Below are positions 7,440 to 28,720 of a stretch of DNA of 64,000 nt, one piece after another (the stretch's first letter is position 1; each line of letters begins with the position of its first letter). Origin of the DNA: Polytrichum commune. Lineage: Eukaryota > Streptophyta > Polytrichopsida > Polytrichales > Polytrichaceae. The translations under genes were made by a program, and so were the position numbers. The notes under the pieces were generated by a model. It was not told the origin of the DNA. It made no database searches and was given only the letters and a program-made list of their open reading frames with translations. Where the stretch lies: the NCBI GenBank assembly GCA_950295325.1, contig OX485807.1, forward strand, positions 6,016,501 to 6,080,500, written 5' to 3'.

Positions 7440-9333
7440 GTTTTACTAAGTGATAAGGTAGGTGTACTTCCTACCCTCCGGGAGTTGGGCTCCTTTAAAT
7501 AATAGTCTGGCAAGATGGATGTGGTGTTGATGCCGAAGTTCTCAATGGAGATATGGGTGAGAATATTTGTTATGCTTTTGGGGAATCTTTGGTGAGTTTG
7601 CTAAGGACTTTGTCTAATTTCTGGATGTCAAGTTTGGAGAAGGGGACCGCATAGTAGACACAAACTATGCATGGTTTGATGACAGGGTTAAGGACGTGGA
7701 TTTTTTGTTTGATGGTGGCAGGTGATGTCATAAATTGTTTGCTTTGTTTTTTTTGTTTTTTCCATTGTTATGTCTCTTTGCAATTTTCATTTGAGTGAAG
7801 GGATGAGATGTATGCCTAGGTACGTGTAAGCTTCATTTCGGGATAGGGTGGGGAAGGGCTTGTATGTAGGCTTGACTACGGTTGGTTTGAAATTAGATTT
7901 GTTGGGGCTTCCGGTGATGGCGCATTTCATTAAGGTTAAGTCTAGGTGTGCCCACTCCGAAGATTTTGTAGTTTGGGGGTTTGTGGTTGTATGTTTGCTA
8001 AATTATCCATGATGATGACTAGATCATCAACATAGGTTGTTGATCAACATGTGGTATTACATATGATTGTGGAAGTATTAAAATGGTATCCAAGGTTGTC
8101 ATTTTCTAACCACCGTAAAAGTGGATGCAAGAAGATGATGATGAGGTATGGGCTAAGTGTGTCGCCTTGTATTGTACCACTGCTGATATGAATTGGTGGT
8201 GTAGCACTGAAGTGGTTGCCATGGAAAGAGGTGGTGAAATTTGTGTAGATGTTACCAATTAGTTATGTTGCGTCGTTGGGGTGGTCTAGGTCTAATGTGT
8301 GATCAATGGAGCCAAAAACATTTCTAAAGTCAATGCACGTAAGGTAAATGTAATTATTTGTGAGCTTAGCATCTTTCAACGTAATGATGATTATTTGTAT
8401 TTGTCTCATGGTGTTTCTCTATTGTTTAAACCTTTTTTGGGCTAAAGTGTAGTGTTTTTTGTTTTTCACCAAAGCTTGTAAGGAGGCTGTGAGGGTAATA
8501 GTGTAGAGTTTGTGGATAATGTTGGCTAGGGCTATGCGTCTATAATTATCAAGTAGTAAGGGGTTGTCTTCCTTGTAGAGGAGTATGGTTTTGTTGTGTT
8601 TCCAATATCTTGGGATGTTCTTTTAGAGATAACATTGCAGGAAAAATAGGAAGAACTTGTCATGGAAAATCTCGGGTATTGCTTTGAGGATTTCATTGAG
8701 GATATTATTGGAGCCTGGTGTTTTTCCTCCTACAAGTTTTTTTGAGGTTGTTATCGAAGACTTCTCTCGTGAATATTATAGTTAAGGTGACATTTTCGGG
8801 GTCTTTTGCCTCAAGGAGGAGGCCATTTGGGCCATGTCATGGGTATTTTTTGACTGCACAATGGCAAGTTGAGGGGTGGTATGTAGGGTCGTTGCATATG
8901 AGGGTTTGTCTTTGAAAGGAGTTTGTTGTGAGCGCCATATTTCTTGGCAATATCTTGAGGGTGTGTAAGGACGTTGTTTATGTCTTTGAGGCAATCTAGA
9001 GGTGCGTTGGTGGTGGGTCTGATTTTATTTTTTTATGTATTGTTTTGGGTTTGTTGTTTAATATGATTATGTATTTGATGATGGTTTTTCTTATAATTTA
9101 TGGTTGTTTGTTTAGAGGTGATTTTGTAGGCTTCTATCTTGGCAATCTGTCCTATGTTGGCAAGTTTGTTGACGGATTGTTGTACTATTAAGTTATCTTG
9201 TGGGGTAGGTGGTAGGATGATATTTATGAGGGTATGTAGTTGTTGTATGTCCGGGTGGGTAATCCAAGTGGGGTAGAGTTAGGTGTTGATTATGCATATG
9301 GCTTTCCTTATGAGATGGTATGTTTTTAGATGT
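7440..9333 (-). pseudogene. LINE ORF2 fragment, reverse transcriptase part (decayed)
   Basis: Reading the minus strand gives a recognisable non-LTR retrotransposon reverse transcriptase with scattered stops. In order: a linker region (about 9.3-8.9 kb), a motif containing IDFRNVFGSIDH (about 8.3 kb, palm motif A), SSGTIQGDTLSPYL (about 8.2 kb, motif B region), the catalytic TYVDDLVIIMD (about 8.0 kb, YxDD) and a downstream part resembling KLDIQKLDKVLSKLTKD (about 7.6 kb). The plus strand is G/T-rich over this stretch, as it is over 27.5-32.3 kb. It is the 3' part of the LINE whose endonuclease part lies right of the 18-kb insertion. At least five in-frame stops show that it is dead. Confidence 0.85.
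9330..9333. repeat. Target-site duplication ATGT, left copy
   Basis: ATGT directly precedes the left inverted terminus and recurs directly after the right terminus at 27538-27541. Confidence 0.8.
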
Positions 9334-9361
9334 AACACTATATTCGTTAAATTGAGACTTT
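9334..9361 (+). repeat. Left terminal inverted repeat
   Basis: 28 bp beginning AACACTATATTCG and ending GAGACTTT; identical at all 28 positions to the complement of 27510-27537. Similarity stops immediately inside. Confidence 0.88.
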
Positions 9362-9479
9362 TTGGGCATTTTGAGACATTCACAAAAATAAGAACAAGGA
9401 TAAATGGAACACATATTGGAGAAAGTTGTAAGATGCGAACACTTTGAAGCGGGTGTTTAGAACAAGAACCCCATTAATA

Positions 9480-9745
9480 ACTCATATTTGGGATTGTTTA
9501 GGGTGGGCAATCCAAACCTTAGGCCAAGTTGAAGGGGAAATCTTAAAACATTCATATTATCGCACAAAAACTTGTATGAATATGGTTTAGGTAGGGCAAT
9601 CCAAACCATAGATCATATTGAAGGGGAAATATGTGAACCAATATAATATAACATACAAAATATTCCAAACTCATATTTGTGATGGTTTAGGTAGGGCAAT
9701 CCAAACCTTAGACCATATGGAAGGGGAAATCATGTGACACTTATA
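9480..9745. repeat. Left subterminal repeats, three units of about 95 bp
   Basis: Three tandem units share a core like GGTTTAGGTAGGGCAATCC followed by AAACC and, after a short spacer, GAAGGGGAAAT. The core is an imperfect palindrome (GTTTNGGT...CCAAAC). Related sequence in inverted orientation occurs near the right end (27325-27395). Paired subterminal repeats of this kind commonly bind transposase; that role here is inference. Confidence 0.65.
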
Positions 9746-9871
9746 TTATTGCAAAAAAAACATACAAAGTGTGGCATGTAAAATGCATAGCATGCTAACA
9801 CCACACATCCATTGGATAGTGCGACCCAAAATGTTCTTGCCTATGGCCCACAACCCTACGCCTACTATGGC

Positions 9872-10674
9872 CTATCTAGCCTCGGAGACTACCTCTTTTT
9901 CTTTTGCTTCATTTTCTTTTGCTTTTTTTTCTTTTGCCTCTTTTTCTTTTGCTGCGGCTTCTTTTGCTCGCATTGCTTCAACATTCCTGAAAATCTCCGC
10001 CCCGCGACTATAGCCATTCTTGGGGTGACCGCCATCAAAAACACATTTTGGATTCCGTCGGCCGCCCGAATTATACGACGAAGAATTCGAATACGATGAA
10101 GTGGACTGTCTTGCATTTCTGGTCATGGAGTAGAAACGCTCCAACTCGACGGACGCACTAGCCCGCATAGGTTTACGGGTGGGAGCAACCTGCAACGCGT
10201 CAATGCAAGAACACATGTGTTAGTTTAGGGAGGAAGACCCAAACGTGTCACACGTTCAATTTTTAAGTGCGGGATGATTGTAATGCGCGGTTAACCATGT
10301 TTTGGGGGGGGGGGGTTCACCTTGTCACCGGGGGCGTTCCTGTCGGAGTTGGCGAGGAGGGGCAAGGCGTCCCGCAAAGGAATAGGAAGGGTGCCACTCT
10401 TCGTGGGCCGAGCGTCCATCTGCAGCCGCCGTTGAGGTGTAATACTGCCGCCGGGCCGAGAGGGGGACGTCCGGACGCATTTGCGATTTATGCCCTTGAG
10501 CGGCGACGGGGACGGAGATGGCCGGAAGATTTGCTTGGGTGGGGGGCTATCGACGACGCCGGCGTCGATAGGCTCCTTGGAGTAGTCGATGGTGGACGCG
10601 GCATCGTAGACGGTCTCGTAGAAGAAGCTCCCCAAATTTGATTCGTTGACGATCTCAATCGAGGGCTCCAAACG
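9872..10674 (-). CDS. Two-exon coding fragment, unknown function, K/E-rich tail
   Basis: Two phase-0 coding segments can be joined: 10674-10321 (118 codons; acceptor GCGCCAG before CGTTTGGAG, donor AAG|GTGAAC) and 10189-9872 (105 codons plus stop; acceptor GCGTTGCAG). The first contains Pro/Ser-rich text (SPSPSPLKG, RTSPSRPGG). The second has an Arg/Ser-rich part followed by a Lys/Glu/Ala repeat (AKEKEAKEKKAKENEAKEKE), probably a charged helix. No start exon was found, because the upstream FCP1-like exon ends in a stop at 10786. It could be the 3' end of a separate gene or an alternative end of the large gene. I recognise no family. Confidence 0.45.
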
Positions 10675-10785
10675 CTGGCGCAAAAAAAGAAACAAAACAA
10701 AACCCAAGGGGAGGGGGGAGCATGTGAAAATCGATATACAATTGAGGCATAATATATCACACACAATGGCACACCATGTAGTATC

Positions 10786-13700
10786 TCAAATGAGTTTATT
10801 ATATTTCGCGTGAGCGTACAACTCTCTGTACATATAGTCCTTCGGATCCATGTATCTTTCGCCTATCGGATTACAACTAAGGAACCGGGGCACGGGTAGT
10901 CCGCTCCCCACGAGCGTTTGAATGTACTTAAGTAGGTCTAACAAAAAGCGGTCTCGGACCTTCTCGACCGTCCACGTGGGGCAAACTATGAAGTTCGAGG
11001 TCGGGTTCAAAATGTTTTTGGAAGCGCTGTCGTCCACCATCAACGTGTTGTCACGGGTGGGGCGAACGTCGTAGGGACAGCCGACCATGGTCGGACGCTG
11101 GTCCCATACGACTGGCTTCAAGACCTTAAGAAATTGGTTTACGGCGGGGTTGTTGGGCTTTTTCACAACCCTGCCCTCGGGGGTGTATAACGTTCTACAA
11201 GAGTCATGTCCTAGGACCAAGCACGGGGGTTGGAGTCCCTTGAAGATGAACTCCACGACGGCCTGGGTGTTCTCGGACTTCATGGAGCTCCACACGATCA
11301 CCCACCATTTGGATAGGGCGACCTGCAGGAAGCGCCGAAGCCACGGGCGGAGGTACACTAGCTTGCTTTTGATGTACGCGGGGGGACCATCGTAGTTGGC
11401 GTCCTCGGGCTTGCAGAAAGGCACCGTGGGGACCCTCGGACAATGCACGCACTGGACAAGGACCCCGTTGAGGTCTAGCACCAGGAACCGGGTCTTGGGA
11501 GGCGAAGGTGGCGAGGGCAAAATCGGGGGGACCACCGCGCTGTCCTCCACACTCCTCGGAGAGGATCGGTGGGGAGCTGCGACGCTATGCTCCGAACCCT
11601 GCGGCGACGAGCGAGAGAAGGCGGACGAGGACTATGTTATGCTATGTCCATCTCAAGCAGAACGGAAATTTTGTGCAAACACAAGAAGAATTGGACCATT
11701 GGTGGCAACAAAAACATACAAGGGGAACAACATACATTGGGACACGGATGCAAACATATGGGCGCCAAAAATAATAATTTTATTTTTACAAATCTCTATG
11801 TACAATTTGATTGGGGGGGGGGGGGGACCGCGGTGAACGAGGGCATTCACACTATCCTAATTCTACATCTACAAAATTGGTTGCGCGCCGCCAAGGTCGA
11901 GCATAGTCGAGTGCAGGTGAGACGAAGGAGATCGCGGGGGGGCACGTTGGGGGGAGGGGGAGCAAGTGTAGAGCATGGGGGGCAGGGGGTGTGCATTTCC
12001 TCCTAGCAAGGGGGACACGACCACGCCAACAAGACAATGACCCAGGAAGTTTGGGTCGGTCGACCCAAACTGGGGAGGGCTCAGTGTATTACCTCGCCCT
12101 GGTCATGTCTCGACGATGTGGAAGCCTCCACCGTCCCCGCTGCCCCGCCTCTCTCGCCACCGCCTTCTCCGACGACGTCAGGAACCTTCTCCTGCAAACG
12201 ATCGGCATCAGGCCCTTGTCCTAAACCAATCTCCGCATTTGCATCATGCATGGGTTCATCGATTTGGTTAGGAGTAGAGGTATCACCAGGCCCTTGCAAG
12301 CCTTCAACATCTAGCATAGCCGTGTCTAGTTGACACCCATGTTGGTCAAGGGAGGACTGCGCTGCAACGGGGTTTGGGTCGGGCGACCCAAACTGTCCTG
12401 CATCTGGAGAGGGCCCTTCGGACACTCCAGTGGATGGTGGGTTTGGGTCGGTCGACCCAAACATCCTGGGGTCGTCCGATTGGTGAGGGGGCGCCATGAC
12501 TATCGGGGGCCGAAGGGGTGGAGGCCGCAAAGGGGAGGAGGCTCCAGAGACGCGCCAGATGTTGGGGTCATCCACTTGCTGGACCTGCGCGTACGGAACT
12601 TGGTGGGGCCGCATCAAGTGCTGGAAGCTGAAAGACGATTGCGGCACAGGCTGCTGAGGGATGCTCTGCGGAGGGAAGCCGGGGGGCAAGTGCGGGAAGG
12701 AGCTGGAGGGAGCCACCACCAAACCTTGCGCCCACATTCCTTGTATCACTTGTGATATCAATTCGGCGTGGGACGGAGGTTGGGCCATCGCCCTCTGTCG
12801 TTCCTGCTCCAACAGGAGAGCCCTTAGCTCTGCTACCTCGTTCCGCATTGAGGGTTCTTCCGCGGCAGCCTTCTGCAGGCGGACTCGCTGCTCCTCGTCC
12901 CTCCTCATCTTCTCGTTCGCCTCCTCCACAGTCAGGACCTTGGGCTTCACCCTAACCATGCCAGCGAACGCTGTCGGGGACGGGGGATCTGATCTTAGCC
13001 GTTTGGCGAGCTCAATGTCATCGTCGTCCTCGCTGCTTATGGCAATGGTCTCCTCCACGGAGTAGTCGCCATACAGCTTCTTCCCCTTCATCTTCCTCCT
13101 CTCCCTGAACGTGGCGGTCGCGTCCCTGGAGTACATGTCCCGTGCATCGTCCACCGTCAGGACGGGCACGAGCTTACTCTGCGGGGTTGCCGCCCGCATT
13201 GCCTTCTTCCGTTGAGGGGCTTCGGATTCTTGCGTGAAGCCCGTTGCCCCTTCCTCCACGTCGCCTTCCTTCTCCGCCTCCTCGTGCTCCTCTTCTTCCT
13301 CCTCCTCCTCGACATCGCCACCTTCTGTGCGGGACGGATTGCCCGGATGCAACCCGACAAGAGGTTCGGGTTCTTGGGTTGTGGCCCTCATGGCCATTTC
13401 TTCCTGGTTGATCCGCCTCACCCTATCAAGAGGGTTTTCGCCCCCCTGAACAACCTCGTCGACGTAGCTACCCGGGATCCAATCGAGGATGTCCATCTTC
13501 TTCGCCAACGATCTCTGCGTCCTGTAAAATGGCAGATCGCCATCCTCTATGTAGGAGTATATACTCAGCCCCGACATCTACACAATCCAAGTTATATAGA
13601 CATTAGAATTAGGCGAGGGACATAAACAAGACCAAGTACAATGTGTAGTTTGGGTCGATCGACCCAAACCAACAAAGAGACTAGTTTGGGTCGATCGACC

Positions 13701-16630
13701 CAAACCAACAAAGAGCCTAGTTTGGGTCGATCGACCCAAACCAACACAGAGCCTAGTTTGGGTCGATCGACCCAAACTGCGCACGAGTTATAGAAAGTCG
13801 CTTACCATGGCAGCATAGATAGGTTTAGAGCCTCCAAAGACGTTGAAGATGCAATCCCCTCTCCTCGTCAGCGTCCTCATCATTCTCACGTAAAATTCCA
13901 TCCGCAGCTCATCTAAAGGATAGTTCGCGTATTTAGCCTCGTCGTAGAGGCACTTGTTGACACCCAACCCTTCTGGAACTTGGAAGAGTTTGTCCATCCG
14001 GGATATAGGGTGGTTCGGCACCTTCAGCAACTCCGCTTTGTACACGAAGTACAAACACAAGACGTTGACGAACTTGGTCTTCTTGTCCCTCAACGTCGTG
14101 TAAGCTCCCTCCGCCGGTGCGGCGATGTAGTGAGACTTGGAGACTGCATACTCCGGCTGCAGTTTCCGGACAAGCTCGTACACCTGCTCCGCCCTCCTAT
14201 CCTCGACTATCCAAAGCCAGATATCTACCTCCCTGAACTTAGGGCTTGCATAATCGACGAACTTAGATAGGAAGGGGTCATAGAAGAGGGTGCTCATCGT
14301 GCCCTCAAATGAGCTTCCAGGAATATTCCTGAAATCAATCATCCCAAAAGGAAAGCGGTCCCTTGCTTTCGTCCTTATCGCCATTCTGGCGTCTGGACCT
14401 GGCCTGCCCTGAATTTTCAACGAGTCGGCGGTGACAAGGTTGAAGTACGCTTCCCCTTCAAACTGGACAATCTTCTTCTCCTTGATGAAGTTCGAGAACG
14501 CACGCGCTGTGTGATCCGGAAGCGCCCGGTTCTTCCCACCCTTCACCATCTTGGCCCGCAAGAAGTCGTCCCCCGCTTCCCTTATTAAAGCCGCCATGGA
14601 GGCACTGGTGAACTTATATTCAGCTTTGAATGCTCTCCAGTTAGCCTCATGGACCTCGCCGTCCACGACAATATTCCTCTCTGGCACTAGTTTATGCAGC
14701 TCCTGCACGATAGTCGTCTTCTTTTTCCTGTTATCCGTCCATTCCTTCATGGTGTAGCATGAAGGAACGAAGGATTTGGGCTTTTGGAAGACAATCTTCG
14801 GGTGCACCCAACACCTCTTCGCCGTGGGTGCCACGTGCAGGATGTGAGATGCCGCCTTCTCCACCTCCGTCTCTGACAGCCCTTGAAGAGTTCTAAAGAA
14901 CTCTCTCACGAAAGGCTTCATCTGCTTGAAGCGCGAGGTTTGGCTGAAGAAAATGCCAGTGTCGGGGTCGATCAAATCCCCCGTCTCGTGCTTTTCAAAC
15001 ATGGTTTTCCACTTCCTCCAAACTGAGTCAGATGCTGTAATCAAGTAAATCTCCCCCTTGAGGTCGCTGTATTTCTTCTGCTTGTGGCTCGAATTATCAA
15101 TGGAGGAGAATTTGTTGATCATTTGGTATTTGAAATCCTGCACGTCCACAAAACAAAACATTTGAATGCGTGTTAGATATGTACATGTGATTTCCAACCC
15201 ATATCATGACCAACATCTGCAACAACAGTTTGGGTCGGTCGACCCAAACTAAATAAACAAGGCTGCATCAGGAGTTTGGGTCGGTCGACCTAAACAATAC
15301 TCACCTCCCATTTGGGATTCTTGTCCTTCGCATTCTCCCTCTCCTTGGGAGGCCTACCATAGAACTCCCACACCTCCCGCGAGGCCATGATATTCCTTAT
15401 CCAGGAAGCTTGGTAGGCCCTCTTCTTCTTTCCCATATTGAAGTACCGGGAGATGTCGCTGAGCTTGGTCTCGTCGTCAGACCACACCACCAGTGCCTTC
15501 CAAACCTTCAGCTTTTCCTTCTGATTGTTCGGATCATCCCACTCATTCATGAGTTGGATTTTCTTGGATGCCTCCACGCTGTGCTGGCCGTCTATGAGCC
15601 AAAAATCGCCCTTCTTAATTGTGGGCCACATTTCAGGTGTAGGCATTTTCTTGAGACCCTGTGGCATCACTACTATCGTTTGCCTGTCGTCTTTAAACTG
15701 CTCGCAAACGATCTGCGCGATTATCCAGTCAACGTAGGCATCCTCCTTTGCCCGGACACACTTCTCCGGTGGCGCTAGATGGCACTGGCTGATGTTCACG
15801 TCGAACTTAAAATCCCTGCCCATGAAAAAACAGTGGGAGCATTTCGTCGTGAAATTATTCACGATTTTCTGCAGCTCCCCTGCATCCACCTCTTCGCCGG
15901 GCTTCGGCATGCGCAACTCCGGTGAGACTGGCTCGTCAGTCATCACAGATGACTCTCTCCCCCTCTTGGATGGAGTTGTTTGACGGCTCCCAGAAGGTGT
16001 AGGCGTCTCGCTATCCGCAGGTGTTTGGGAGGGAATGGTCCTCCGCGAGTCAGCCGGTATTGGTCGCGGCTTCCTCACCGATTGAGGTCTTGACGACCCT
16101 GCTCCTTCCTCTGTGGTTGCTTTCCGCCTCACGGGTTGCTGAGACTTGGTTTTGCTCTGCAGGGCTTTGTTGAGCACGCTGATTGCATGCTTTAGTTTCG
16201 TGAATCTGCTCGACACCTTTGTGTTCGATGTACTGTTATCGATGAATATGGACTCCGGTTTGATGACGTCTGGTTCTACACATGTTTCTTTTGCATAGAT
16301 AGCGTCAAAGGGTTCGGAGAACTGGTGTATAAACATATGCGCGTTCTGGACAGCGTTGTTCTCGAGGATGACATCCACGTCGTCTCCAAGAGACTGAACC
16401 GATGCCACCTCCCACCCCGTAAGAGTAGCCCATGTGTGCTTCTCCACGGTCCCAACCTTCACAACAAAAATCATTTTGTATTGCGAACCCTTAACCACTT
16501 GTATAGACCACGCGAGGACAAGCCCGTCCTTAGGGGAATAGGAGTCATCCTGCGGGGTTTCGTGCTCCTGCCACAACATGTCCGGCGCAGGCATGAACCA
16601 CCTTTCGCCGGGTCTTTTCTTTGGAGCCAT
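10786..16630 (-). CDS. Four-exon gene with ParB-like DGQHS and FCP1/HAD-like parts
   Basis: Exons 16630-15305, 15137-13806, 13577-12093 and 11598-10786 (442, 444, 495 and 270 codons plus stop) join in phase 0 at every intron, with donors GAG|GTGAGT, ATG|GTAAGC and GAG|GTAATA and acceptors GTGCAG, TGTGTAG and CGCCGCAG. The ATG lies directly after an acceptor (TTCTTACAG), so an upstream untranslated exon is likely. Exon 1 has a Ser/Pro/Thr-rich linker and, near residues 290-360, a ParB/sulfiredoxin-like pattern with WLIDGQHSVEASKK. Exon 2 is an unrecognised globular domain. Exon 3 is acidic (poly-Glu), Gln- and Pro-rich. Exon 4 resembles plant FCP1-homology HAD phosphatases (LVLDLNGVLV near residue 1423, IVWSSMK, LMVDDSASKN). 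The function in the transposon is unknown; four separate genes is the alternative. Confidence 0.65.
11599..12092 (-). other. Intron 3 of the large element gene
   Basis: 494 bp between donor GAG|GTAATA and acceptor CGCCGCAG. It contains one 22-bp palindrome copy (12049-12070) close to the donor and a long G-run on the plus strand (about 11812-11826). The acceptor choice is the least certain of this gene; a second AG (GTCGCAG) lies 22 bases further in. Confidence 0.5.
12372..12462. repeat. Two palindromes inside coding exon 3
   Basis: Copies at 12372-12393 (central variant GTCGGGCGAC) and 12441-12462 (GTCGGTCGAC) lie inside the open exon. In the gene's frame they read as FGSPDPNP and FGSTDPNP, so the repeat has been inserted without breaking the frame. 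Confidence 0.75.
13648..13777. repeat. Four palindromes at exact 36-bp spacing in an intron
   Basis: Copies of TTTGGGTCGATCGACCCAAA, each with a flanking G and C, start at 13648, 13684, 13720 and 13756. Spacers are near-identical (CAACAAAGAG- or CAACACAGAG-like). They lie in the intron between exons 2 and 3 of the large element gene. Confidence 0.9.
15228..15295. repeat. Two palindromes in the exon 1-2 intron
   Basis: Copies at 15228-15249 (perfect, GGTCGACC centre) and 15274-15295 (one mismatch, GACCTAAAC on the right half) lie just inside the donor side of the intron between exons 1 and 2 of the large element gene. Confidence 0.85.
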
Positions 16631-16917
16631 CTGTAAGAAAATAATGTGCAATGTTAGTTTCGGTCGTTCGACCCAAACATCTACGACATGAATAGGTTTA
16701 GGTGGATTGTATATTTATATATTTCAGCATCATTTGTATTGATAATAAGAATGTTTTGATTATTGGGTGGATTTGCATTTTATATTGTTTGTGACATGCA
16801 GGATTACTTGATACTTTTCCTTGATACATTCCTTGATTATTATTTTTTAGTGGATGTGAATTTTATATTGATGCAAAAATCATGGATTTCTTTATGAGTT
16901 TATAATTAGAAGACGTT

Positions 16918-17113
16918 GTTTGGGTTGTTCGGCCCAAACATGATGCTTTGTTTTGTGTTTGGGTCGGTCGACCCAAACATGATGCTTTGTTTTGTGTTTG
17001 GGTCGGTCGACCCAAACAAGAGGCTGTGTTTGGGTCGGTCGACCCAAACAAGAGGCTGTGTTTGGGTCGACCGACCCAAACCTGTGGCCGTGTTTGGGTC
17101 GTCTCCCCAAACT
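16918..17113. repeat. Palindrome cluster, six copies
   Basis: Copies begin at 16918 (diverged), 16957, 16996, 17028, 17060 and 17092 (diverged). Spacing is 39, 39, 32, 32 and 32 bp, with spacers such as ATGATGCTTTGTTTT and AAGAGGCTGT. The apparent reading frames over this stretch (Val-Gly-Arg-Pro-Lys or Phe-Gly-Ser-Val-Asp-Pro-Asn repeats) are a by-product of the palindrome. Confidence 0.9.
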
Positions 17114-17639
17114 TTCCTATTTTAATGTAAATTTTAAAGTTGGCACGTAGCATATACAATGCTTATGCGTTGTGTATGCTACAATACCTTCAATTGACAA
17201 ACACTTATTGCATATAATAAAAGAAAATACCTTTGTTGTATGTAGCAGTTGTTGTAAACAGTTGCTTTAGAACAGGTGTTCTTCTTCCAATAACACAGAA
17301 ACAGTTGAATGTAACCTCTCACACAAATCCACAATCTCTCATCACTACTAGAAAATCATGACCAAATCAACAGAAAATCAACAGATTTGTGTTGATTTGG
17401 GCACTGCAATGACCTATTTCACTGAATTTGTAACTTCTTGCCAAAACCAACAGTTTGGTGCCTACTTTTTGTTGATTCGAGTAGTACAATGGCCAAATCA
17501 ACAAAACTCACGCAAAATTAGAATCTTTAGAATATTCCATTATCCTTTTGGAAAAAATTTCGAGTATTTTGAAATCTTTTTAAACCATTCGAATCTTTTG
17601 GAATCTTTTGGAATCTTGAATACTACTAAATACTGTAAA

Positions 17640-18150
17640 TAATATATTGCAGATTATACTATAAATAATATAGTGCAGGGTATACTATAAATAGTGTATG
17701 CAGATTATATTATAAATAGTATATTACATAATAAAGTATAAATAGTATATTACATAACGTAGTATAAATAGTATAATCTGTAATATACTAAAAATAGTAT
17801 AATCTGTAATATACTTAAAATAGTACAATCTGCAATATATTAAAAATATGATATGATATATTATACTATAAATAGTGTATTCTGAAATACATTATATATA
17901 GTATAACTTGCAATATATTATTTTTAGTATATTTTTGAAGATATGTTAATATTATATTTTAGAATATAAGTAAATACTACATTTCAGAATATATGTATAT
18001 AGAACATGTCAAAATATACGTAAATAGTATGTTGTAAAAAACACATAAATAGTATATTTCATAATATACATAAATAATCTGTTTTAGGATATACGTATAT
18101 ACTAAGAATTTATTTAAATAGTATATATCAAAATATATTGTAAATAGGTT
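17640..18150. repeat. AT-rich degenerate tandem tract
   Basis: Repeated variants of TATACTATAAATAGTATA and AATAGTATAATCTGTAATA, roughly 20-40 bp apart, fill this stretch. It looks like an expanded low-complexity interior of the CACTA element. No coding potential. Confidence 0.7.
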
Positions 18151-18625: not shown

Positions 18626-18654
18626 TAAAAGGGTTTAAAGCACTCCCTTTATAT

Positions 18655-18800
18655 CAAGAAAGTGTGTTGACTTGGTGGTTAGAACCACCAAGTGGGAAGC
18701 CCAAGGTTGGGGGTTCCAATCCCTTGGCCCGCAACTATGACCTCTAGCCTAGCCTAGCAAGCCTAGGCGAGTATGTTGGAGTTGATGGGGACGTAGTTTG
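18655..18800 (+). mobile_element. SINE-like, tRNA-type promoter boxes
   Basis: The text runs TTGACTTGGTGGTTAGAACC (A-box-like TGGTTAGAAC), then GGGGGTTCCAATCCCTTGG (B-box-like GGTTCCAATCC) about 30 bases later. This spacing and order match the head of tRNA-derived SINEs. It is not an intact tRNA: no acceptor stem pairing is evident. Target duplications were not found, so the ends are approximate. Confidence 0.5.
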
Positions 18801-19090
18801 TGCTGTGGTAGTAGTCTGAAATTAACTTTTTTTGCCCGAACATCCAGGCCGTAAAAAATAAAATTTTCCGGAAAATCCGGAAAGTAAAAAAATTGATTTT
18901 TATTTTTATTTTTGTTGGTAAACTTTTGATGACCAGATCAACAGAACAGATCAACAGAACAGATCAACAAAACCGTGTTACAGAGTGTCCAGGTCAACGC
19001 GTCCTAAGTAACAACCGCGACCAACACTTTTTTGTTGATCCGGACGCAAAATTTTCTACTAGTGCATACAACTCCTAGATCTCTTTTGAA

Positions 19091-19387
19091 TCTCTCAAAC
19101 AACAATTCAATACTTCAAACAACCTCTGAATCTCTAAGAACAAGTGAATCTCTCAAAACAATAACTGACTCTCTCAAATGACTTAGATATCTCTCAAACA
19201 ACAATTGAGTGTTTCAAACAACCTCTGAATCCCTAAGAACAAGTGAATCTCTCAAAACAATGACTGACTCTCTCAAATGACTTTTGTATCTCTCAAACAA
19301 CAATTGAGTGTTTCAAACAACCTCTGAATCCCTAAGAACAAGTGAATCTCTCAAAACAATGACTGACTCTCTCAAATGACTTTTGTA
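19091..19387. repeat. 99-bp tandem repeat, three units
   Basis: Units start with TCTCTCAAACAACAATT at 19091, 19190 and 19289, and a fourth start at 19388 diverges after ten bases. The period is exactly 99 bp; units 2 and 3 are nearly identical. The CACTA element is inserted at the left edge: the outside text resumes as ATCTCTCAT|ACAACTCC. Confidence 0.9.
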
Positions 19388-20940
19388 TCTCTCAAACACC
19401 TCCTGATTATCTTATAGAACTCCTAAATCTCACAAACTCTCCAACTACAATACAGCCTCCAAAACCCGCAAGCTTAGAATGTTGGAAAACCCTTCAACAA
19501 TCTTCTACTTACTTCACTCTACAACAATCACTCTATTAACTCTCACGCACTCTAAAACTCTCTCCTTAGGTTTCTGTTCTATTGCAAACACTTCCTAACT
19601 TCTACAGCAAGAGAAGGGAGGGAAGGAGAAGAATCAGTAGGCGCCAAAGCAACAAGAAGGGAGGGAAGAGAAGAAAATCGCCACCCTGAATCGCCACGGC
19701 GCTTCGCGAAAGCGGCGCTTCAGGAGAGGCGGCGCTTCCACAAGAGGCGCGGAGCGAATGCTTGGCGCGGAGAGAGAGAGAAAGAGCGAAAAGTTGTGAC
19801 GGCTGGGGTTTTGTATGCCTCGGGAATTGGCCCCCAACCGCACGAATAGGGTGCCAATGGGATTAGGGCACCAACGGAATTAGGATTACGGGGAACCCTA
19901 AATCCTAAAGCCAAACTGTAAACCCTTAGCGGGCATTAGTATTTTCAAGACACTTTGGAGTACCCTAATGGGGCATTCCCACTTGACTTTAGTTAAGACC
20001 CTCACTATTTTATAAAGACCGGGTAAAGCTCCCTCGGTTATAGCGGAGGCATCCAACTATCCCAATGCACCTACAAGAACTTGCTCCGGAGATTTTCAAG
20101 TAGGTTTTAGTTAAGTAGCTTTCACACATGTTCATGGTTTTATCTACCAAGCAATGAATGTTGGGTAGTTTTTGTCCCATCCCCAAATGCCTTACTACTC
20201 ACCTATCTTACCATCGGTTTTTGTTAATGAAGCTCCTCGTGCCCTCATAGCTAAGACTAAAAAGCAACCAATCACAAGGGTGGGAGGCGACACTTTTAAA
20301 ATTCCTATATTCTTGCCTAATGTTTAGGTACCGATGGGAGCGTCGGTGGTTGAGGCTTAAAACCTCCACTTTTAAGCCATGCCACATCATTTGCCACCTA
20401 GGCTCGGCACTAAAAAGAGCCATATGTGTGAAACCTAGATAACTAAAACCGCATTTAGACTAATACTACTTCTAACTAATGTCAAGAGGGAATGCCCCAT
20501 AAGGTGCACATCAAATGCGGTATTCTACAAAATGAAACCATTTATACAACTAATGCATTTTTACAACGCAACGTTATGCTAAAACTAAGACTTAACCCCT
20601 ACTCACATGACACCATAACCTAAATTTCCCAAACAAGTTGAAATCATTGGTTTCTCTTTTGTTTGAGCAAGTTAGAAAAATAATACAATTGCGTGACATT
20701 TAACGATGTAATCGTTGACATTTAGACTTTACCAATGATGCCAAGAACTCACACAATATGCAATGAATAAAAAATATAACCCCCGTCCCCCAACATGAAA
20801 TTCGGAAATTTAGGATATTTGAATGTGTTTGCTAAATGTATACCTTCCCCAAGAGCATTTTCTCAGGGTTTGGAATTGCATGATCCTTATGTCGAAATGC
20901 TAACATGCTCAAGTTTTTAGTAAATCCCTTACATACTCAC
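19388..20940. other. Non-coding interior of the 18-kb element
   Basis: C/T-rich then mixed sequence. Frames of 60-70 codons on the minus strand (19634-19914, 20208-20423) show no domain. It may include the 5' leader of the large minus-strand gene, since that gene starts directly after a splice acceptor and no upstream exon was located. Confidence 0.4.
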
Positions 20941-21775
20941 TTGAATGAATCACATAGTCGCCAATAAACCATGGATCGTGATATATGTACTTCGAATGTG
21001 ATATAAAAGTAAATCGGAGAACCACAACATCAAATGAAGTCCTTTGACGCAATCATGTTGTTATTGAATGTTCCCTCCACGTATATTACATAATGGCGCA
21101 AGATAAAGTTCATGTTGTTTGTATGTGGAGGTAGCAGTGAACAACTACGAATTTTTGTATTTAGGGTTTAGGGTTTAGGGTTTAGGAGTTAGGTTTATAA
21201 CATATTAATCTATCCAATATTAACATATAACATTGACTTACTGGTGAGAATAGGTTTTTACTGGAAGGTAATAGAAAAGACGATCTTGATTATGTTTATT
21301 TGTTATTACGGACGTTTAAACGTGATATAGTGAATGGTCTTGTGTTTATTCAAATAACATGAAATGTTGTGGATGTTATTAGGGGTAAGGGGTTCAACTT
21401 TGGATGTTTTGCTCACTTTAGGGAATCACATAGTCGCCAATAAACCATGGTTCATGATGTATTTAATATATGGAATGTGATGCAAAAGTAAATAAGAGAA
21501 GCACAACATCAAATGAAGCCATTCACGCAATCATGTTCTTATTCATTGTTCCCTCCACATGTATTGGATAATGGAGAAAGATATAACAGATATTGTTTGC
21601 ATAATATGAAGAAGAGTCTAATAGGAAGGTTATAGTAAATACAATCTTGATCATGTTAATATGTTATTTGGGACGTTTAAACATGATATACTAATTGGTT
21701 TTGTATTTTGTCAATACGTATTTCATGTTGTGGATGTTATAAGGGTTTAGGGTCCAACTTTGGATGTTTTGGTCA
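20941..21775. repeat. Imperfect duplication of about 0.4 kb
   Basis: 20941-21415 and 21422-21775 align in order: CACATAGTCGCCAATAAACC, GTGTT/GTTCCCTCCAC, GGACGTTTAAACNTGATATA, TTCAACTTTGGATGTTTTG. The first copy has about 90 extra bases (roughly 21145-21240), which include the telomere-like run. Confidence 0.8.
21160..21187. repeat. Interstitial telomere-like repeats TTTAGGG
   Basis: Three consecutive TTTAGGG units followed by TTTAGGA. A second short run (about GGGTTTAGGGTTTAGGGG) lies at 21936-21952. TTTAGGG is the common plant telomere unit. The run is present in one copy of the local duplication and absent from the other. Confidence 0.8.
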
Positions 21776-22637
21776 CACACATTAGTAAACTTGAAGTGAA
21801 CTTGAGGATGGATTGAAATAACATTAAAAGATTGAACCAAAAAGCGACATTGCTAGTTAGTATCCCCTTAACAACGTCCACATACGTTTATCATTGCCAC
21901 ACTTCCATGCGAGATAACAGAGCCGCAATGTTCTAGGGTTTAGGGTTTAGGGGAGACAAATAAATAATTTTATTCATCATGACAATGGCCTCAAGCCTTG
22001 GAAACTCTCTCATAATTGCAACCTCCAAATGGCCCCAACCCCACCTAAATAGGTTTGCACTTGAAAGCATTGAATGGAGTTGTGGTTGGGTATACATATT
22101 GGTTAAAATATACCGTTGTGACACTTGAAAAAATTAATGTGGCCGCCACCCTTCCTCCCAATGTCGTATGTCATATACACACAAAACCAAAAAAAGATTA
22201 AATATCATAGACTAAGACATATGACGGCTGGGGTATGAGAGGGGCATTGAAAGATGCGCATTTTCTACAATAAACAGAAAACGGGGAATTCTGTCAGGAG
22301 GTTTGAAATAACAAGGCGGGAAAGGCATCCAATGAGGAAGTCGGGCAAGTGGAGGTGGATAGTATAAAGGGGCGCACCCCCCAAAAGTTGGTTCTTTTTT
22401 GCTCTTCTCCCACTCCTGAATTCGTAGAGAGAACTCTTAGTCGGAGCTGTACTTCGAGGTTCGTTCACGCTGTTGTTCATGAGGACCTATTCACAGCATG
22501 CAAGTCCGCAGTGAACTTTGCAATGAGATGAAATTCCACACACCTCTCAATATCCGCTGCATTATACGCCGCATTATACGCTGTATTATACGTCGGTCGA
22601 CACTAGTGTTGGCGGGTTTCAGTCTGACCCTTGTGAG
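21776..22637. other. Non-coding interior of the 18-kb element
   Basis: No supported gene. Short frames (21933-22124, 22265-22531) carry no recognisable motif. The stretch ends in repeated GCATTATACGC phrases (about 22558-22595) just before the palindrome array. Confidence 0.4.
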
Positions 22638-23737
22638 GTTTGGGTCGGTCGACCCAAACCCCTCCACTAGTGTGGGCGGGTTCTAGTCTGACCATTCTAA
22701 GGTTTGGGTCGATCGACCCAAACCCCTCCACTAGTGTGGGCGGGTTCTAGTCTCACCCTTGTGAGGTTTGGGTCGGTCGACCCAAACCCCTTCACTAGTG
22801 TTGGGGGGGGGGTCTAGCCTGACCCTTGTGAGGTTTGGGTCGATCGACCCAAACCCCTTCACTAGTGTTGGGGGGGGGGGGTCTAGTCTGACCCTTGTGA
22901 GGTTTGGGTCGGTCGACCCAAACCCCTTCACTAGTGTTTGGGGGGGGGGGTCTAGTCTGACCCTTGTGAGGTTTGGGTCGGTCGACCCAAACCCCTTCAC
23001 TAGTGTTGGGGGGGGGGTCTAGTCTGACCCTTCTGAGATTTGGGTCGGTCGACCCAAACCCCTACCCCACTATGGGCGTTTATCGTAAAACCTTTCAGAA
23101 GGTTTGGGTCGGTCGACCCAAACTTTTTCGCACATCGTGAACGAATTGTTAATGGCCCTTACCCAAGGTACTCAGAAGGTTTGGACGGACAGAGTAGGAA
23201 CCTTATCCCATCATATGTAATGTTTGGGTCGAGCGACCCAAACCTCATCCCATTGTGGGTGGATTTACACTGTGAAAGTTTGGGTCGACCGACCCAAACC
23301 CTTTCCCAGTGTGGGTGGACTTACCCTGTGAAAGTTTGGGTCGACCGACCCAAACCCCTTCTGAGTGTGGTGGGTTTACCCTGTGAAAGTTTGGGTCGGT
23401 CAACCCAAACCCCTTCCCAGTGTGGATGGATTTAGCCTGTGAAAGTTTGGGTCGACCAACCCAAACCCCTATCCAGTGTGGGTGGATTAACCCCGTCAAA
23501 GATTGGGTCGGTCGACCCAACCCCTTCCCCAGTTTCGGAGGTTGTAGTTGACCATGACAAGGATTGGGTCGGTCGACCCAAAATTTTCCCCATAGCGTGA
23601 TGGAATTCTAAATGGCCCTCAACCCATCATTGTACAAGGTTTGAGTCGGTCGACCGGAACCCGACCCTATCCCACGGGCAAGGTGTGGATGGCCCTCAAT
23701 CCCTGGTGCCACAGGGTTTAGGTCTGCCGACCCAAAC
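22638..23737. repeat. Large palindrome array, about 17 units
   Basis: A tandem array of about 55-75 bp units, each with one palindrome (consensus TTTGGGTCGRTCGACCCAAA) and a spacer such as CCCCTTCACTAGTGTTGGGG or CCCCTTCCCAGTGTGGGTGG. The first perfect copy is at 22638-22659 and the last, diverged one at 23716-23737. The centre varies (GGTCGACC, GATCGATC, GACCGACC, GAGCGACC) but the TTTGGGTC/GACCCAAA arms are kept. Units from about 23.45 kb onward are increasingly mutated. It lies immediately upstream of the transposase-like gene. Confidence 0.92.
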
Positions 23738-23937
23738 TCCCACCCAAAATATTTTGTGGAACATTTTGTGGACTGACGCATAGTATTGGGAGCTCACATT
23801 GCATTTGTGTTGCAAATGTCTTGATCCTCAGTGTCCCCATTTATCGTGATGTTTTGCATTTTCCAATATTTGATTTTTTTGGACCCTTACGTTGTGTCCA
23901 TGTTTGTTGAGGTTTCATGTGCATTTGTGTAGGCGCA

Positions 23938-26900
23938 ATGGAGGGAGTTGGTGGAAGAGGGGATTCCTTCTCTGAAGACATGGGCAGCACCCAATCTCTG
24001 TCTGGGGATGAGCTAGACATTGTCGGGGAGGATAGTTTTGATGACAGTGCAGATGAAGGTCATTTGGGGAGTCCTTCGCCATCTGACATTTTTTGCCCCA
24101 TTGTGGAATGTGCGGGGCTTTCACGAGCTTCATGGGTGAATTTGGATGTGGTACTTGTTAATGACAGTGGAGTTGCTGTGGCGGAGGGTATTTGTCGTAA
24201 CACACATCCACAAGATTGCATTGATGAACACTCCCTTGGCACCGAGGACGTTGGAGTTGTTATATTATAATCACTTGTACATTCGGAAGTCAATCCAACT
24301 CATAGGTTCTCGTTGCGAAGGTGGCCGTTGAGGAATGTGACAATTGAGGGGGTTAGCTTGCGCGACCATGAGCGACGACACGTCCAAATCCAACAGGAGC
24401 TCCAAGCAAACATTCGGCCACGCAAAGGCCTTCGGAAGTACGAAACATTGACACGTCCTACTCCGTCTGCAAATAAGTGTAAACGTCAAAGGTTGCTCTG
24501 TGAGGAGTCTATTAGAGAAGTTGCTACGAAGGATTGTTGTGTACATCGTTGTTGCCAATTGTTCCCAAGAGATAAATTGAAGGCCATCCGTGAAGAAATG
24601 TGGCTTGGAGATTTCCGTCTAAGATCCACCAAAAAACTTGATGTCCATAGGGCGATACATGTGAACGGAGCGGGTCGCAAGGTCATCACCCTTGAGAGCA
24701 TAGACGTGTGTTGTACGGCATGGTACACCATTCACGGTGTGTCGAAAGCGGAATTTTATAGACAAGCCGCGTATGCCAATGAAGGCCGCCGTGCCCGTCA
24801 CCATGGGAACACGGGCTTAAAGAAACCAAGAGAAGCAACGAGACAAGCAACAGCCACTCTGGCAACCATCATTGTCCCCCTTGCCGATGCAATGCCGCAC
24901 AAAACACGGACACTCGCAACCGGTGAAAAGGTTGTGGAGAAGGTTCTTCCTACAGGCACGAAATGGAAAGACATATTGTTGGACGTAAACGCAGTTGGCG
25001 AGAAGGCCGGGTTGGACCCAATTTCGTTGTCGAAACTGAGTGCTATCAAAAAATCTCACTTTAGCGAATACATCACAAAAAGACGAGGCGACAAATTTGC
25101 CCGTTGTTCCAAATGCGAGAAGTTGAAACGCCTTCGAGATGCACACACGATGGGGACAGAGTCCTATGCCGCACATCAAATGAACTATTTCAAGCATGTG
25201 AACATGCAAGAGGCACACCGTAATGATTACTACACAAATAGAGCTTTGTCCATCTCCAGGCCTTTGGAAGTCCTTACAATCATCCATGACAAAATGGACC
25301 ATGCCAAAACAGCCTCACCATGTTTTGCAAATCGAATAAAAGTCACGGACGGCCTTTTTAAGCTTCCTGTTTCGGTTACAGGTGATTTTGATAACAATTG
25401 CATTGCATTACCTAAACACAAATTTGTGCGTTTAGGTTTGTACTTGGGGCCATACATGTACACCATGTGAATTTTTTGGTGTTATAGTTGAATATTAAAC
25501 CATTGGGTTGCCTTTGCAGGAATGATTGCACATGGGCATGGAGATGTCAAGTATGCTCATTATGCTCTTGATTTGTATCCGGGGGATTCAAACCACACGA
25601 TAGGGTCATTTGCAAAGCTTTTACGTGATTTGGAGAAACCGCCGTCCTATTCATCAAGATTGCTATTTGAAAACTCGGGATCAACACCTCTATATGAAGC
25701 GGTCTTGGATGGAAGAGATGTATGCGTGCACTCATTGCCGGAGCCACCAAGTGAAGATGTGATTGCCAAGAATTTGCCCCCAACTCTGCGTGTCCAATTG
25801 GACAATTGTGCGAAGGACAATAAAAGTAGATATGTTTTTGCATATTGGTCGTTGTTGGTTGCGAAAGGCATTTTCAAGGAGGTTTTTGTGTCCTTTCTAT
25901 TGGTAGGCCACACGCACGATGATATTGATGCGTCCTTTGGGCGGTGGAGCATGAAGTTGCGCGAGGAGGATTTTCCAACAATCCTATTGTTGATGAAGTC
26001 GTACATGGATTTGGAGAACATTCCCGTCATCCCACATATGATTGAGGAGGTTCCAGACTTCAAGGCATTTATAGAACCGTATATTCGAAGCGGAGCTCAC
26101 CGATTGATCGGGCATACGAAGGCACAACAATTTCGGTTCTACGTGCGTGACGATGGTGTCCCCGCCATGCAATACAAGTTGTTGTGCACATCACAAGACT
26201 GGAGCCCGCCGGAGGGTCTCCTTGTATGGCGTATTGATGGGGAAGGAAGGACGATGTTGCCTGACGGAGAGCCTAAGCCTTGCAAACCAATACCCATGAA
26301 GAATTTGGAGGACATTTGTAAAGGCATATCAAGCTTTATACAATATTGGGAGAGTTTGAGGGTAGCGGATGTTGGTGGATCGTGTTGGCTTCGTTACGGA
26401 AGTTGGATACAATATTGGACACGTGTTCGTGGCGCTTTGGCAAACCTTCATCAAGATACACCCCTTACTTTAAGGCATGGGTTTTGGCCACAAACACGTG
26501 TCAATGTACAAGCTTCGGAGGCTAGTCTTTTGGGAAATGGAGAGGTTCGAGAGGAGTTTGATGTGGACGACCATTACGTGGGGCCTGCTAGTAGTCGTCC
26601 GCCACCATTTTTCCGCATTGCAGTGGATTGTCATGAAGGTTATATGCTCATTTTGCGTCCTGGAGATGAGACATATGCAAAGCCAGTGTGGGTAGCAAGA
26701 GCTTTGTCCAAACCAAATTTTGTAACTTCCAGCCCTCATTTTCGACAAATACAAGTAGAGTACTACCGACCGACATCACGGAATGAAGATGTTGTTCGGC
26801 ATTATACAGGCTGGGATACAAACCCTAACTTTCAGTGGAAGGTGGATTCTGAGCATGGTCCATCTTGGATAGATATAGATTCCATATTCATAGCATGGAA

Positions 26901-27006
26901 ACCACGGAAAAATCATAGTGGATCGGTGTCCATCCCTCAAAAGTACATAACTTTTGCAAAAGACAACCTTGCTCGGATCGCAGAAGAAGCAACCCACGTT
27001 AAATGA
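23938..27006 (+). CDS. DUF7869-type transposase-like protein
   Basis: Segments 23938-24187, 24290-25381 and 25520-27006 give about 942 codons. The second intron is firm: donor ACAG|GTGATT, acceptor CTTTGCAG, phase 1, rebuilding ...VSVTG|MIAHGHGD. The first is tentative: an in-frame TAA at 24268 separates two frames in the same phase, and a 102-bp intron 24188-24289 would remove it; a disabling stop is the alternative. The N-terminus is acidic; then a Cys/His cluster (CCVHRCC, near residues 160-170) and CSKC. The C-terminal half has VQLDNCAKDNKSRYVFAY and FLLVGHTHDDIDASFG, the hallmark pattern of the DUF7869/transposase-derived family; the Asp residues may be catalytic. Likely the element's mobility protein (inference). 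Confidence 0.75.
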
Positions 27007-27509
27007 GAAGTTGGTAGGATTGTGTTAGCATGATTATAGTGTAATATGTAATTCGACGAATATATATTACTCATATGTGTGCTCCTCAAACTTGGGGCAA
27101 AGTTTGGGTAGAACTTGCGAATGCTATATTGTTTGGGGTTGGATGAATATCCATTTACTATATTTCAATACAAATGTGAAGTTCATTTTTTTATTAAGTT
27201 TGGGACTAAATTGTCCATTGAAGAAAAATGCATTTATTGCATGCACTTTGTATGTTGCAATGTCTATATTTTATTGACCATGCTAATAATATAAACCATT
27301 TTATATGTTTATTGGATGAAACTAGTTTGGAGTGCTCTACCCAAAGTGTTTTTGTTGATGAAGTTGGTGTTGAGTGCTCTACCATATGTGCTTATGTCCA
27401 CACATAATAGATTTGGGATATTAGAACATATAATATATTTGAGATTGTTCGCAATATAGTTTCGGAACACGGAATGTTGTTTGATCCATATATTAATTTG
27501 AGACTAGAG
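27007..27509. repeat. Right subterminal region
   Basis: Non-coding AT-rich sequence between the transposase-like gene and the right terminus. Two repeats containing GAGTGCTCTACC (about 27331-27350 and 27372-27386) read on the minus strand as TTTGGGTAGAGCACTCCAAA, resembling the left subterminal core GTTTAGGTAGGGCAATCC in inverted arrangement. Confidence 0.55.
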
Positions 27510-27537
27510 AAAGTCTCAATTTAACGAATATAGTGTT
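27510..27537 (-). repeat. Right terminal inverted repeat
   Basis: Exact complement of 9334-9361 over all 28 bases, followed directly by ATGT (27538-27541). Confidence 0.88.
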
Positions 27538-28720
27538 ATGTTGCTTCCAAAGCTTTTGTTGTTTGCGGGGAAGGAAATCTCCTTGTTGGCGGGCATGGTG
27601 CAGTAAGGTGAGGGGGAATGTTTGTTTATACATGTCCCATTGATGCAATTACTGAGTATGTTTTTTATATCTTGGAATTTGTCTTGGGCAAATTCCCATT
27701 CAATGGAGGTCATTGATGGGCTTTGTAGAGCTTTGGTGAGTAGTTGTGGTTCTAGATTGATGGCTTCTTGGAACTTAGTGAGGAACGTTTGTATGCTTTC
27801 TTGGGGGATTGGGTAGGTAATTTATGATTGGTATTTTGGTGATTAATGTGATTTTCCAAGTATTGCACAAAGTTGAGTGTGAGGCTAATTGGGTAATGGT
27901 TTAAATTTTGATTTTGATTAGTTAAGGTTTGGCATTTTGGTAGGGTTAGAAGTGGGTAGTTGGTGTAGAAACCATTTGTAAGGCTAGTGGAGGTTTAGTT
28001 TGGTCACCCTGTTGTGAGAAGGTTTCATTGTTGCGGATGGGGCGAAGGGCTAGGCCTTGCATGAATTGTGCCCAATCTTTGTCCTCTCAGTTAAGGGTTT
28101 GGGGAATGTCGTCGTGTATGTAGCCAACTAGGAGGATGTCACTATTGATGTCCCTTGCTAATATCACTTTGTGTGTAAGATGGTTTTTTGGTAAGAATAT
28201 TGATTTGATCTTTGATTATTGGGATGTGTGTGAAGTTAGTAGGATGTGAGGGCATGTGCATGTTCATCATGAGTAGTGTTAGATATTTTAAAGACTAGTA
28301 GATACGGTGATATGTTCCTTGGCGTGGGGATTTTGATAATATTTTCCAGTAAAGTATATGTTTTTGTGGATTATGGCAATGGTGCCGCCTCTTGGAGGTT
28401 CAAATATTGTGAATTGTGGGTTTCTTTGTAGATTTGTGTCATTTGCATGATTATAGAGGATTTTATATTCCAAGAATCGATTGTCTGTGTAGGTGGTAGA
28501 TTTGTGTCTTCAAAAGTTTGGTTTCTTGTAGTAGAATAATGGTGGGTTTGTCTTGTATGTTTTCTATTCGTTCCATAATGCCTAGGAGGTTGGAGCTAAT
28601 ATGGCCTAGTGGTCCATGTAATAATGTGGATAAATATGGTGGATGTTTGTGTGGGTTGTGTTTGTGTTGGTGGATGTGTTGGTAGGTTAATGTTTGGGTT
28701 TGGTGTGAATCCAATTATGT
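27538..28720 (-). pseudogene. LINE ORF2 fragment, endonuclease part (decayed)
   Basis: Minus-strand frames show an apurinic-endonuclease-like start (NIQDKPTIILLQETKL near 28.55 kb; the QET motif is typical of LINE endonucleases) and RGGTIAIIHKN near 28.37 kb. Further down, a minus-strand frame containing RKQQKLWKQHL runs into the right end of the 18-kb element and continues left of it as KTYHLIRKAI. Frame changes between the segments show decay. With 7440-9333 this is one LINE. Confidence 0.8.

Follow-up and report, generated by a model that had tools for sequence, protein, structure and literature searches.

A 64,000-nucleotide stretch of the Polytrichum commune genome (hereafter the window; contig C5:6016501-6080500 of the 407.8 Mb, 64-contig assembly that was searched) contains a multi-gene DNA transposon, W, with a putative transposase gene on the plus strand, a second gene (gene 2) on the minus strand, and many copies of a 22-bp palindrome specific to its family. 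The original prediction, made from the letters of the window alone, called for an 18.2-kb element with perfect 28-bp inverted termini and an ATGT duplication, and all of this is exactly as stated: i) W is 18,204 bp long, at window positions 9334-27537; ii) the left terminal inverted repeat (9334-9361, plus strand; AACACTATATTCGTTAAATTGAGACTTT) and the right (27510-27537, minus strand) are exact reverse complements; and iii) unstranded copies of the target-site duplication ATGT, defined by the ends and by empty sites elsewhere in the genome, lie at 9330-9333 and 27538-27541. The element was further said to interrupt a long interspersed nuclear element (LINE), and when W and one ATGT are removed the minus-strand frame does read RKQQKLWKQHL-KTYHLIRKAI across the join; this particular LINE copy is not intact, since stops flank the join on both sides.

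Empty copies of the LINE, proposed as a check on the insertion, were found. A 240-nt query made by joining the flanks, minus W and one copy of ATGT, gave 37 matches, two of which are the window's own flanks; the six relatives fetched, all from among the eight best-scoring matches, align continuously over the junction and contain one ATGT but nothing of the element, the empty site being spelled TAGATGTTG in five and CAAATGTTG in one. Because the empty sites carry a single ATGT without the element, the transposon must have jumped into the LINE, duplicating 4 bp. A TA duplication flanking ends that start with ACACT is excluded, as the six empty sites have one ATGT and not ATGTATGT. Together with the target duplications and many further copies, the empty sites show W to be a DNA transposon with several genes that has integrated into a LINE.

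Genome-wide, the terminal 28-mer has 1029 + 1031 matches at ≤3 mismatches, and the reversed control has 0. On contig C1, the 90 exact ends listed form 34 adjacent plus/minus pairs less than 60 kb apart, with 21 spaced at 14-19 kb, 12 longer, and one at 4.8 kb (median 17.4 kb); if all ends pair as they do on C1, we estimate that the genome holds on the order of 1,000 elements, occupying some 4% of its length. Target duplications were tallied from the ten bases flanking 100 listed ends of 404 that matched a pattern accepting any base but T at the tenth position beyond the end, so that ends bearing T at that position are absent from the tally. These ends gave 24 adjacent plus/minus pairs, 22 of which share exactly 4 bp and none 5, compared with a background 4-bp agreement of 69 in 2499 over all combinations of left and right ends; T occupies position 4 in 16 of the 22 duplications, and A position 1 in 11. 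In one of the two misses the pairing skips an intervening listed end, and the other, C2:32270259-32287106, is without duplication. Apart from that last pair, none of the outcomes named as refuting the prediction was seen: further loci do have paired termini, 4-bp duplications flank them, and none of the fetched LINE relatives naturally contains the sequence. Twelve elements were then compared, comprising W, seven copies of the same family chosen for having both ends exact (A, B, D, E, F, G, and H), and two members of each of two diverged families (X and Y; V and U). All the whole elements fetched are flanked by 4-bp duplications (7/7 in the same family, 2/2 for X/Y, and 2/2 for V/U).

The plus-strand gene consists of exon 1 (T1, 23938-25381), a GT...AG intron (25382-25519), and exon 2 (T2, 25520-27006), the two exons amounting to 976 amino acids plus stop. 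The window copy has an in-frame stop at 24268-24270 in exon 1, a position at which the frame is open in copies A and D, and in family X the homologous transposase frame is unbroken where W has the intron. Exon 2 contains a DUF7869 domain (Pfam PF25273, E 1.2e-40) with LDNC...HTHDDID motifs. The motifs HDKMD, LDNC/MDNC...NK, and GHTHxDxDAxFG of the protein are kept in the distant family X, with 41 residues separating the second and third Asp; judging from these D...D...D motifs, the DUF7869 protein is likely to be a DDD transposase with an RNase H-type fold. A search of the literature, covering Creative Commons (CC)-licensed papers, found no paper on DUF7869. At least 85 genome copies are ≥96% identical in transposase exon 2, and 71 of the 85 copies scored from 1,869 first-look candidates (the window's included) are stop-free in that exon.

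The predicted layout of a ParB-like/phosphatase gene on the strand opposite a DUF7869-type gene proved right; the two genes are divergent, and the four minus-strand exons belong to one gene. In order of transcription these are exon 1 (P4, 442 amino acids; 15305-16630), intron 1 (167 nt; 15138-15304), exon 2 (P3, 444 amino acids; 13806-15137), intron 2 (228 nt; 13578-13805), exon 3 (P2, 495 amino acids, acidic and of low complexity; 12093-13577), intron 3 (494 nt; 11599-12092), and exon 4 (270 amino acids, containing a NIF/FCP1-type domain; 10786-11598). In W, A, and D the exons measure 1326, 1332, 1485, and 813 nt; each length is divisible by three and no exon is interrupted by a stop, which gives 1,651 stop-free codons and a product of approximately 1,650 amino acids; all three introns are GT...AG with phase-0 joints in these same copies, and the splice motifs of introns 1-3 are likewise present in copies B and H. 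The conserved phase-0 splice sites exclude four separate minus-strand genes, as a list of open reading frames would suggest, and we infer that the four exons are spliced as one gene-2 mRNA in the living plant. Copies B, E, and G have stops or losses in parts of gene 2.

The ParB-like/phosphatase label stands in its second half and is weak in its first. Exon 4 matches Pfam NIF (PF03031, E 1.7e-13) at 51 bits, compared with a cut-off of 21.8. The canonical NIF/FCP1 catalytic motif is DxDx, from which the first motif of exon 4 (D-x-N) departs by replacement of the second Asp with Asn, as seen in DLNG (W), DVNG (X), and DLNG (V/U). Recent capture of a host phosphatase is rejected, since all three families have the domain, with 32-41% identity to the W version. 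Exon 1 is weakly ParB-like around a GQH motif that is invariant in the alignment and that we take to be a ParB motif; three of four exon-1 homologues match the PHROG entry 'ParB-like partition protein' marginally (best E 0.024; window member 0.1), and Pfam ParB_N has no match to gene-2 exon 1. A genome-wide search with ParB_N gives four matches, all of them away from the elements studied; they fall on contigs C10, C12, and C23, which are perhaps bacterial. Nothing above cut-off was found for P2, P3, or P4 in Pfam or for P4 in NCBIfam, the YEATS matches of two P4 members (E 0.017-0.02) falling below the YEATS cut-off; a search of solved structures gave no convincing match (9l08, at 1.8e-4, covers 34 residues, and no stretch passes alone); and no relatives were confirmed among viral contigs.

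Families X/Y and V/U came to light through DUF7869 matches, 150 of 1,491 candidates being scored. X (C1:48452759; 24,961 bp) and Y (C1:71777635; about 22,009 bp) are flanked by ATCC and TGTA, and end in ATGGGGATATTAACTAAAATGAGAC, with one to two changes at the opposite ends; their outer limit was set so that both copies fit, with AT counted inside the end. V (C1:69.89 Mb; 17,576 bp) and U (C7:5.15 Mb; 17,327 bp) are flanked by GTAT and TTGT, and have AACACTATATTCGTTAATT at one end and the same sequence with a few changes at the other. In both families the genes, their order, and their orientation are all as in W. Amino acid identity to W is 32% for the NIF exon, 29% for P3, 26% for P4, 41% for T1, and 51 and 34% for T2 in X/Y, with no match for P2, and 41% for NIF, 37% for P3, 33% for P4 (31-35% by alignment), 25% for P2, 68% for T1, and 66% for T2 in V/U; one V fragment includes a stretch that is 77% identical to W. 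The ends and the transposase are the better conserved parts of the element, and gene 2 and the palindromes the faster changing. Further DUF7869 frames of nearly full Pfam-model length, apparently from other families, are located at C6:41940433, C7:2075344, C3:1632694, and C2:52992202.

The ratio of nonsynonymous to synonymous divergence (dN/dS) is 0.05-0.23 for P3, P2, NIF, and T2 between W, B, H, and E (plus G for T2), and 0.07 for P4 between B and H, the synonymous divergence (dS) of P4 relative to W being saturated. We conclude that the measured exons, a set from which T1 was left out, are under purifying selection. Higher values in the very close pairs W-D, E-H, and G-H (0.18-0.83) are what one expects if few changes have yet been sorted, and those for NIF against G (0.32 and 0.70) are unreliable because G is without an intact exon there. 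Between W and B, dS is 0.064 in T2 but 1.55 in P3, and element halves have therefore been exchanged between subfamilies.

Eleven of the twelve elements contain many copies of one 22-bp dyad with the form 10+2+10, the exception being the deletion copy F. The dyad is GTTTGGGTCG-NN-CGACCCAAAC in the W family (15-26 perfect copies each in W, A, B, D, E, G, and H), CCCACGGGTG-NN-CACCCGTGGG in X/Y (12 perfect copies in X and 11 in Y), and TTTACGGACG-NN-CGTCCGTAAA in V/U (8 and 9 perfect copies); no perfect dyad of one family was found in another family's elements among the twelve checked, and CpG is present in each half of all three. A count of perfect 10-2-10 dyads gives 21-23 for W, B, and H, 13-14 for X and Y, and 10-12 for V and U, compared with a mean of 0-0.05 in dinucleotide shuffles (20 per element, for 7 of the 12 elements). 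Perfect sites number 9,231 (W-type), 644 (X/Y), and 1,147 (V/U) genome-wide, and the reversed-pattern control gave 0. Among the first 100 W-type sites listed, 61 lie inside two exactly paired elements and 16 are ≤16 kb from a single exact end.

The 22 perfect dyads of W are distributed as follows: ten in an array 5′ of the transposase gene (22638-23355, with degenerate dyads among and after them), the largest in W and 0.6-1.3 kb upstream of the transposase start codon; four 5′ of gene 2 (16957-17081); one in intron 1 (at 15228), four in intron 2 (13648-13777), and one in intron 3 (at 12049) of gene 2; and two in its exon 3 (at 12372 and 12441). Three 92-nt subterminal repeats at the left end (9496-9706) contain degenerate dyads with 4-5 mismatches at 9496, 9585, and 9685. 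From W to A to D, introns 1 (167, 212, and 258 nt) and 2 (228, 336, and 372 nt) lengthen with dyad number, and exon lengths remain constant. The X/Y and V/U dyads are likewise found upstream of each gene and in the gaps separating those coding parts that in W flank introns 1 and 2, placement in V/U being defined relative to coding parts rather than to mapped splice sites. We reject the idea that the dyads are a scattered host repeat, as their place and geometry are kept in the elements examined. Moreover, the dyad does not track the terminal site of the transposase, because the ends of W and V/U have their first 13-17 bp in common and their dyads are unrelated.

The claim that such an element belongs to no named superfamily needs qualifying. 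By description, not by transposase sequence, the nearest kind that we found is Sola (this and later comparisons with published systems draw on excerpts of the papers cited), and we file W as a Sola-like giant element in which the conserved second gene with a phosphatase-type domain and the orthogonal palindrome sets are new. Like Sola, W and its relatives have 4-bp duplications and short inverted ends, and Sola1 is listed for another moss, Physcomitrella (PMC9033089). Closest in layout is the 21.5-kb Sola1-1_Ec32 of the brown alga Ectocarpus, also a giant, in which transposase and ParB-like protein are encoded on opposite strands (PMC12477816); its accessory protein, which the authors suggest may bind and modify its own transposon, has 1104 amino acids and a DNA methyltransferase domain, unlike the NIF/FCP1-type domain and ~1,650 residues found here, and family-specific palindromes are not mentioned in the excerpts of that report. 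The Sola2-type elements of dictyostelids are described as making 4-bp AT-rich AWWT duplications, a consensus printed for Sola2-type elements (PMC3627910), and only 2 of our 22 duplications are AWWT. This scarcity of AWWT, the restriction of Pfam matches above cut-off to DUF7869 and NIF, and the conservation of two genes across three far-diverged families would all fit a superfamily separate from Sola; given the duplication length, the short inverted ends, the Physcomitrella listing, and the opposite-strand ParB-like gene of Ectocarpus, we think such independence unlikely.

Other assignments were rejected: i) EnSpm/CACTA, which needs CAC...GTG ends and a 3-bp duplication (PMC12730594), as the ends here are AACAC... 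or ATGGG... and the duplication is 4 bp; ii) the wider CMCT clade, in which 2-5 bp are allowed but ends are CA...TG 'in most cases' (PMC12730594), as the ends here differ; iii) Kolobok and piggyBac, whose duplication is TTAA-specific (PMC9587614), as TTAA occurs in 0 of 22; and iv) Zisupton (KDZ), with an 8-bp duplication (PMC12730594), as 4 bp and never more are duplicated in the 22 pairs. Listings of CC-licensed papers and the excerpts cited here contained no description of a comparable arrangement in land plants.

How might such an element work? In the account we favor, the plus-strand DUF7869 transposase would act on the 25-28-bp ends, leaving 4-bp duplications, and the gene-2 protein would bind the 22-bp palindromes of its own element as a dimer; once bound, it would regulate the element's expression or shield it from host silencing, much as VANC proteins do; and with palindrome spelling diverging while geometry and positions were kept, each family would come to recognize only its own copies. 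Among possible binders the gene-2 protein is the strongest candidate, because the palindromes differ between W and V/U where the start of the ends is shared, and because three different palindromes at corresponding places would be unexpected for a host factor. We put an even chance on the whole, that is, on a giant cut-and-paste transposon in which the gene-2 protein binds the palindromes of its own family and thereby controls expression or protects from silencing; as to the effect of binding, it is these two possibilities, protection or expression control, that we favor. A more specific version is possible but doubtful, namely that W belongs to a eukaryotic transposon lineage with ParB/parS-like self-recognition, in which the gene-2 protein, ParB-like at one end and bearing a CTD-phosphatase-like HAD domain at the other, binds the family palindromes and sustains expression against silencing, its specificity having changed repeatedly to give each family its own orthogonal system. 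In bacterial ParB/parS the sites are palindromic and clustered, and W resembles that system in its clustered palindromes and in a protein with weak ParB-like similarity; it differs in having no Pfam ParB_N match and in its setting, a eukaryotic transposon.

Two plant systems can also be compared. In the VANC anti-silencing system of Arabidopsis, in which an element-encoded protein recognizes the motif of its own family and reduces methylation, the motifs are short, are tandemly repeated in noncoding DNA, and differ between related families (PMC5735166, PMC10398659) of the VANDALs, themselves members of MuDR (PMC12730594). Family-specific motifs repeated in noncoding element DNA and an extra element-encoded protein are features in common with W, but the VANC21 motif YAGTATTAY and the VANC6 motifs AGTTGTCC/AGTTGTAC are non-palindromic as printed. 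The second is Tgmt* of soybean, a 20.5-kb CACTA/EnSpm element with TNPA-type subterminal repeats (PMC2613891), which is likewise giant and likewise combines conserved ends and transposase with repeated motifs that vary along with a diverged DNA-binding protein; unlike Tgmt* and other CACTA elements, W and its relatives have AACAC or ATGGG ends, a 4-bp duplication, and a DUF7869 transposase, and their motifs are mainly gene-upstream and intronic. Giant transposons with accessory genes are already known. Here one genome provides at least three families with wholly different candidate sites of like geometry and placement, making specificity, co-evolution, and an effect on silencing testable. If our account is correct, these would be three orthogonal protein-DNA pairs; and should RNA polymerase II or chromatin prove to be the target of the phosphatase-type domain, the gene-2 protein would represent a novel type of transposon effector.

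Several observations weigh against binding of the palindromes by the gene-2 protein. The ParB assignment of exon 1 is weak, and two structure predictions gave no usable fold (mean predicted local distance difference test scores, pLDDT, of 33 and 35). Placement is not strictly noncoding: the 2 of 22 W dyads in exon 3 are exceptions, as is one X dyad (at 4386) within the P2 frame. One-sided changes to the sites outnumber symmetric double changes by 173 to 4 (W-type), 12 to 4 (X/Y), and 53 to 14 (V/U), a predominance that looks like decay and not strict upkeep. Copy F, a 4.8-kb deletion copy, has a target duplication and no dyads, so that either transposition does not require dyads in cis or the copy lost them after it had inserted. 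The remaining 23 of the 100 listed W-type sites occur in clusters away from exact W ends. Finally, half-sites of the W dyad also occur in an unrelated miniature inverted-repeat transposable element (MITE), where they form a hairpin with 37-nt arms, GTTTGGGTCGAGCA-TTT-TGCTCGACCCAAAC, the core of which is found at 131 + 131 places in the genome at ≤1 mismatch. The half-sites may be there by chance, by hitchhiking, or as a small-RNA source or means of targeting the giant transposon; for hitchhiking there is a precedent in AT9TSD1, which carries VANC6 motifs and is unrelated to the elements they come from (PMC5735166, PMC10398659).

Against binding by the gene-2 protein must be set three other explanations of the palindromes. 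They might be internal enhancers or regulatory sites to which the transposase of the element binds, leaving gene 2 with another role. The transposase is also conserved and the largest W array lies upstream of its gene, but the ends of W and V/U are closely similar and their T2 exons 66% identical, yet their dyads are unrelated; gene 2 is the less conserved (P4, 31-35% between W and V/U), as expected of a binder that is itself changing; and the dyad-free deletion copy has a duplication, though the deletion may have arisen in place. On balance we regard the transposase as an improbable binder. Alternatively, the palindromes might work at the RNA level, forming hairpins that influence how the gene-2 transcript is spliced or processed, or that feed small RNAs, given that 6 of the 22 perfect W dyads are in gene-2 introns, that each dyad could fold into a 9-bp stem closed by a 4-nt loop, and that the unrelated MITE has W half-sites in a long hairpin. 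This explanation has a low probability in our estimation: the largest array is 0.6-1.3 kb upstream of the start codon of the other gene, and pairing is not visibly kept by compensation, because in all three dyad types one-sided changes outnumber symmetric double ones. That the palindromes are sites for host transcription factors, mere promoter or enhancer elements clustered 5′ of both genes, is likewise improbable, since three families have three unshared palindromes at corresponding places where a shared host factor would be expected to use a common one, and the introns are occupied as well.

The MITE just mentioned is a 386-bp repeat at window positions 5732-6117, with 24-bp inverted ends and TAA flanks, by which we take it to be PIF/Harbinger-like. 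The clusters of W-type dyads away from exact W ends include C1:438279-478028 and C1:2154319-2159887, which may belong to further related families. Within W, the region between the divergent genes contains AT-rich tandem repeats of 26 bp and tandem repeats of 99 bp (17631-18161 and 19072-19429). Elsewhere in the window, positions 37133-37909 hold a transposase fragment with a Pfam DDE_1 match (3.6e-14), presumably pogo/Tigger-like, and an exon at 50628-50987 resembles, by eye, a plant-like Mn superoxide dismutase.

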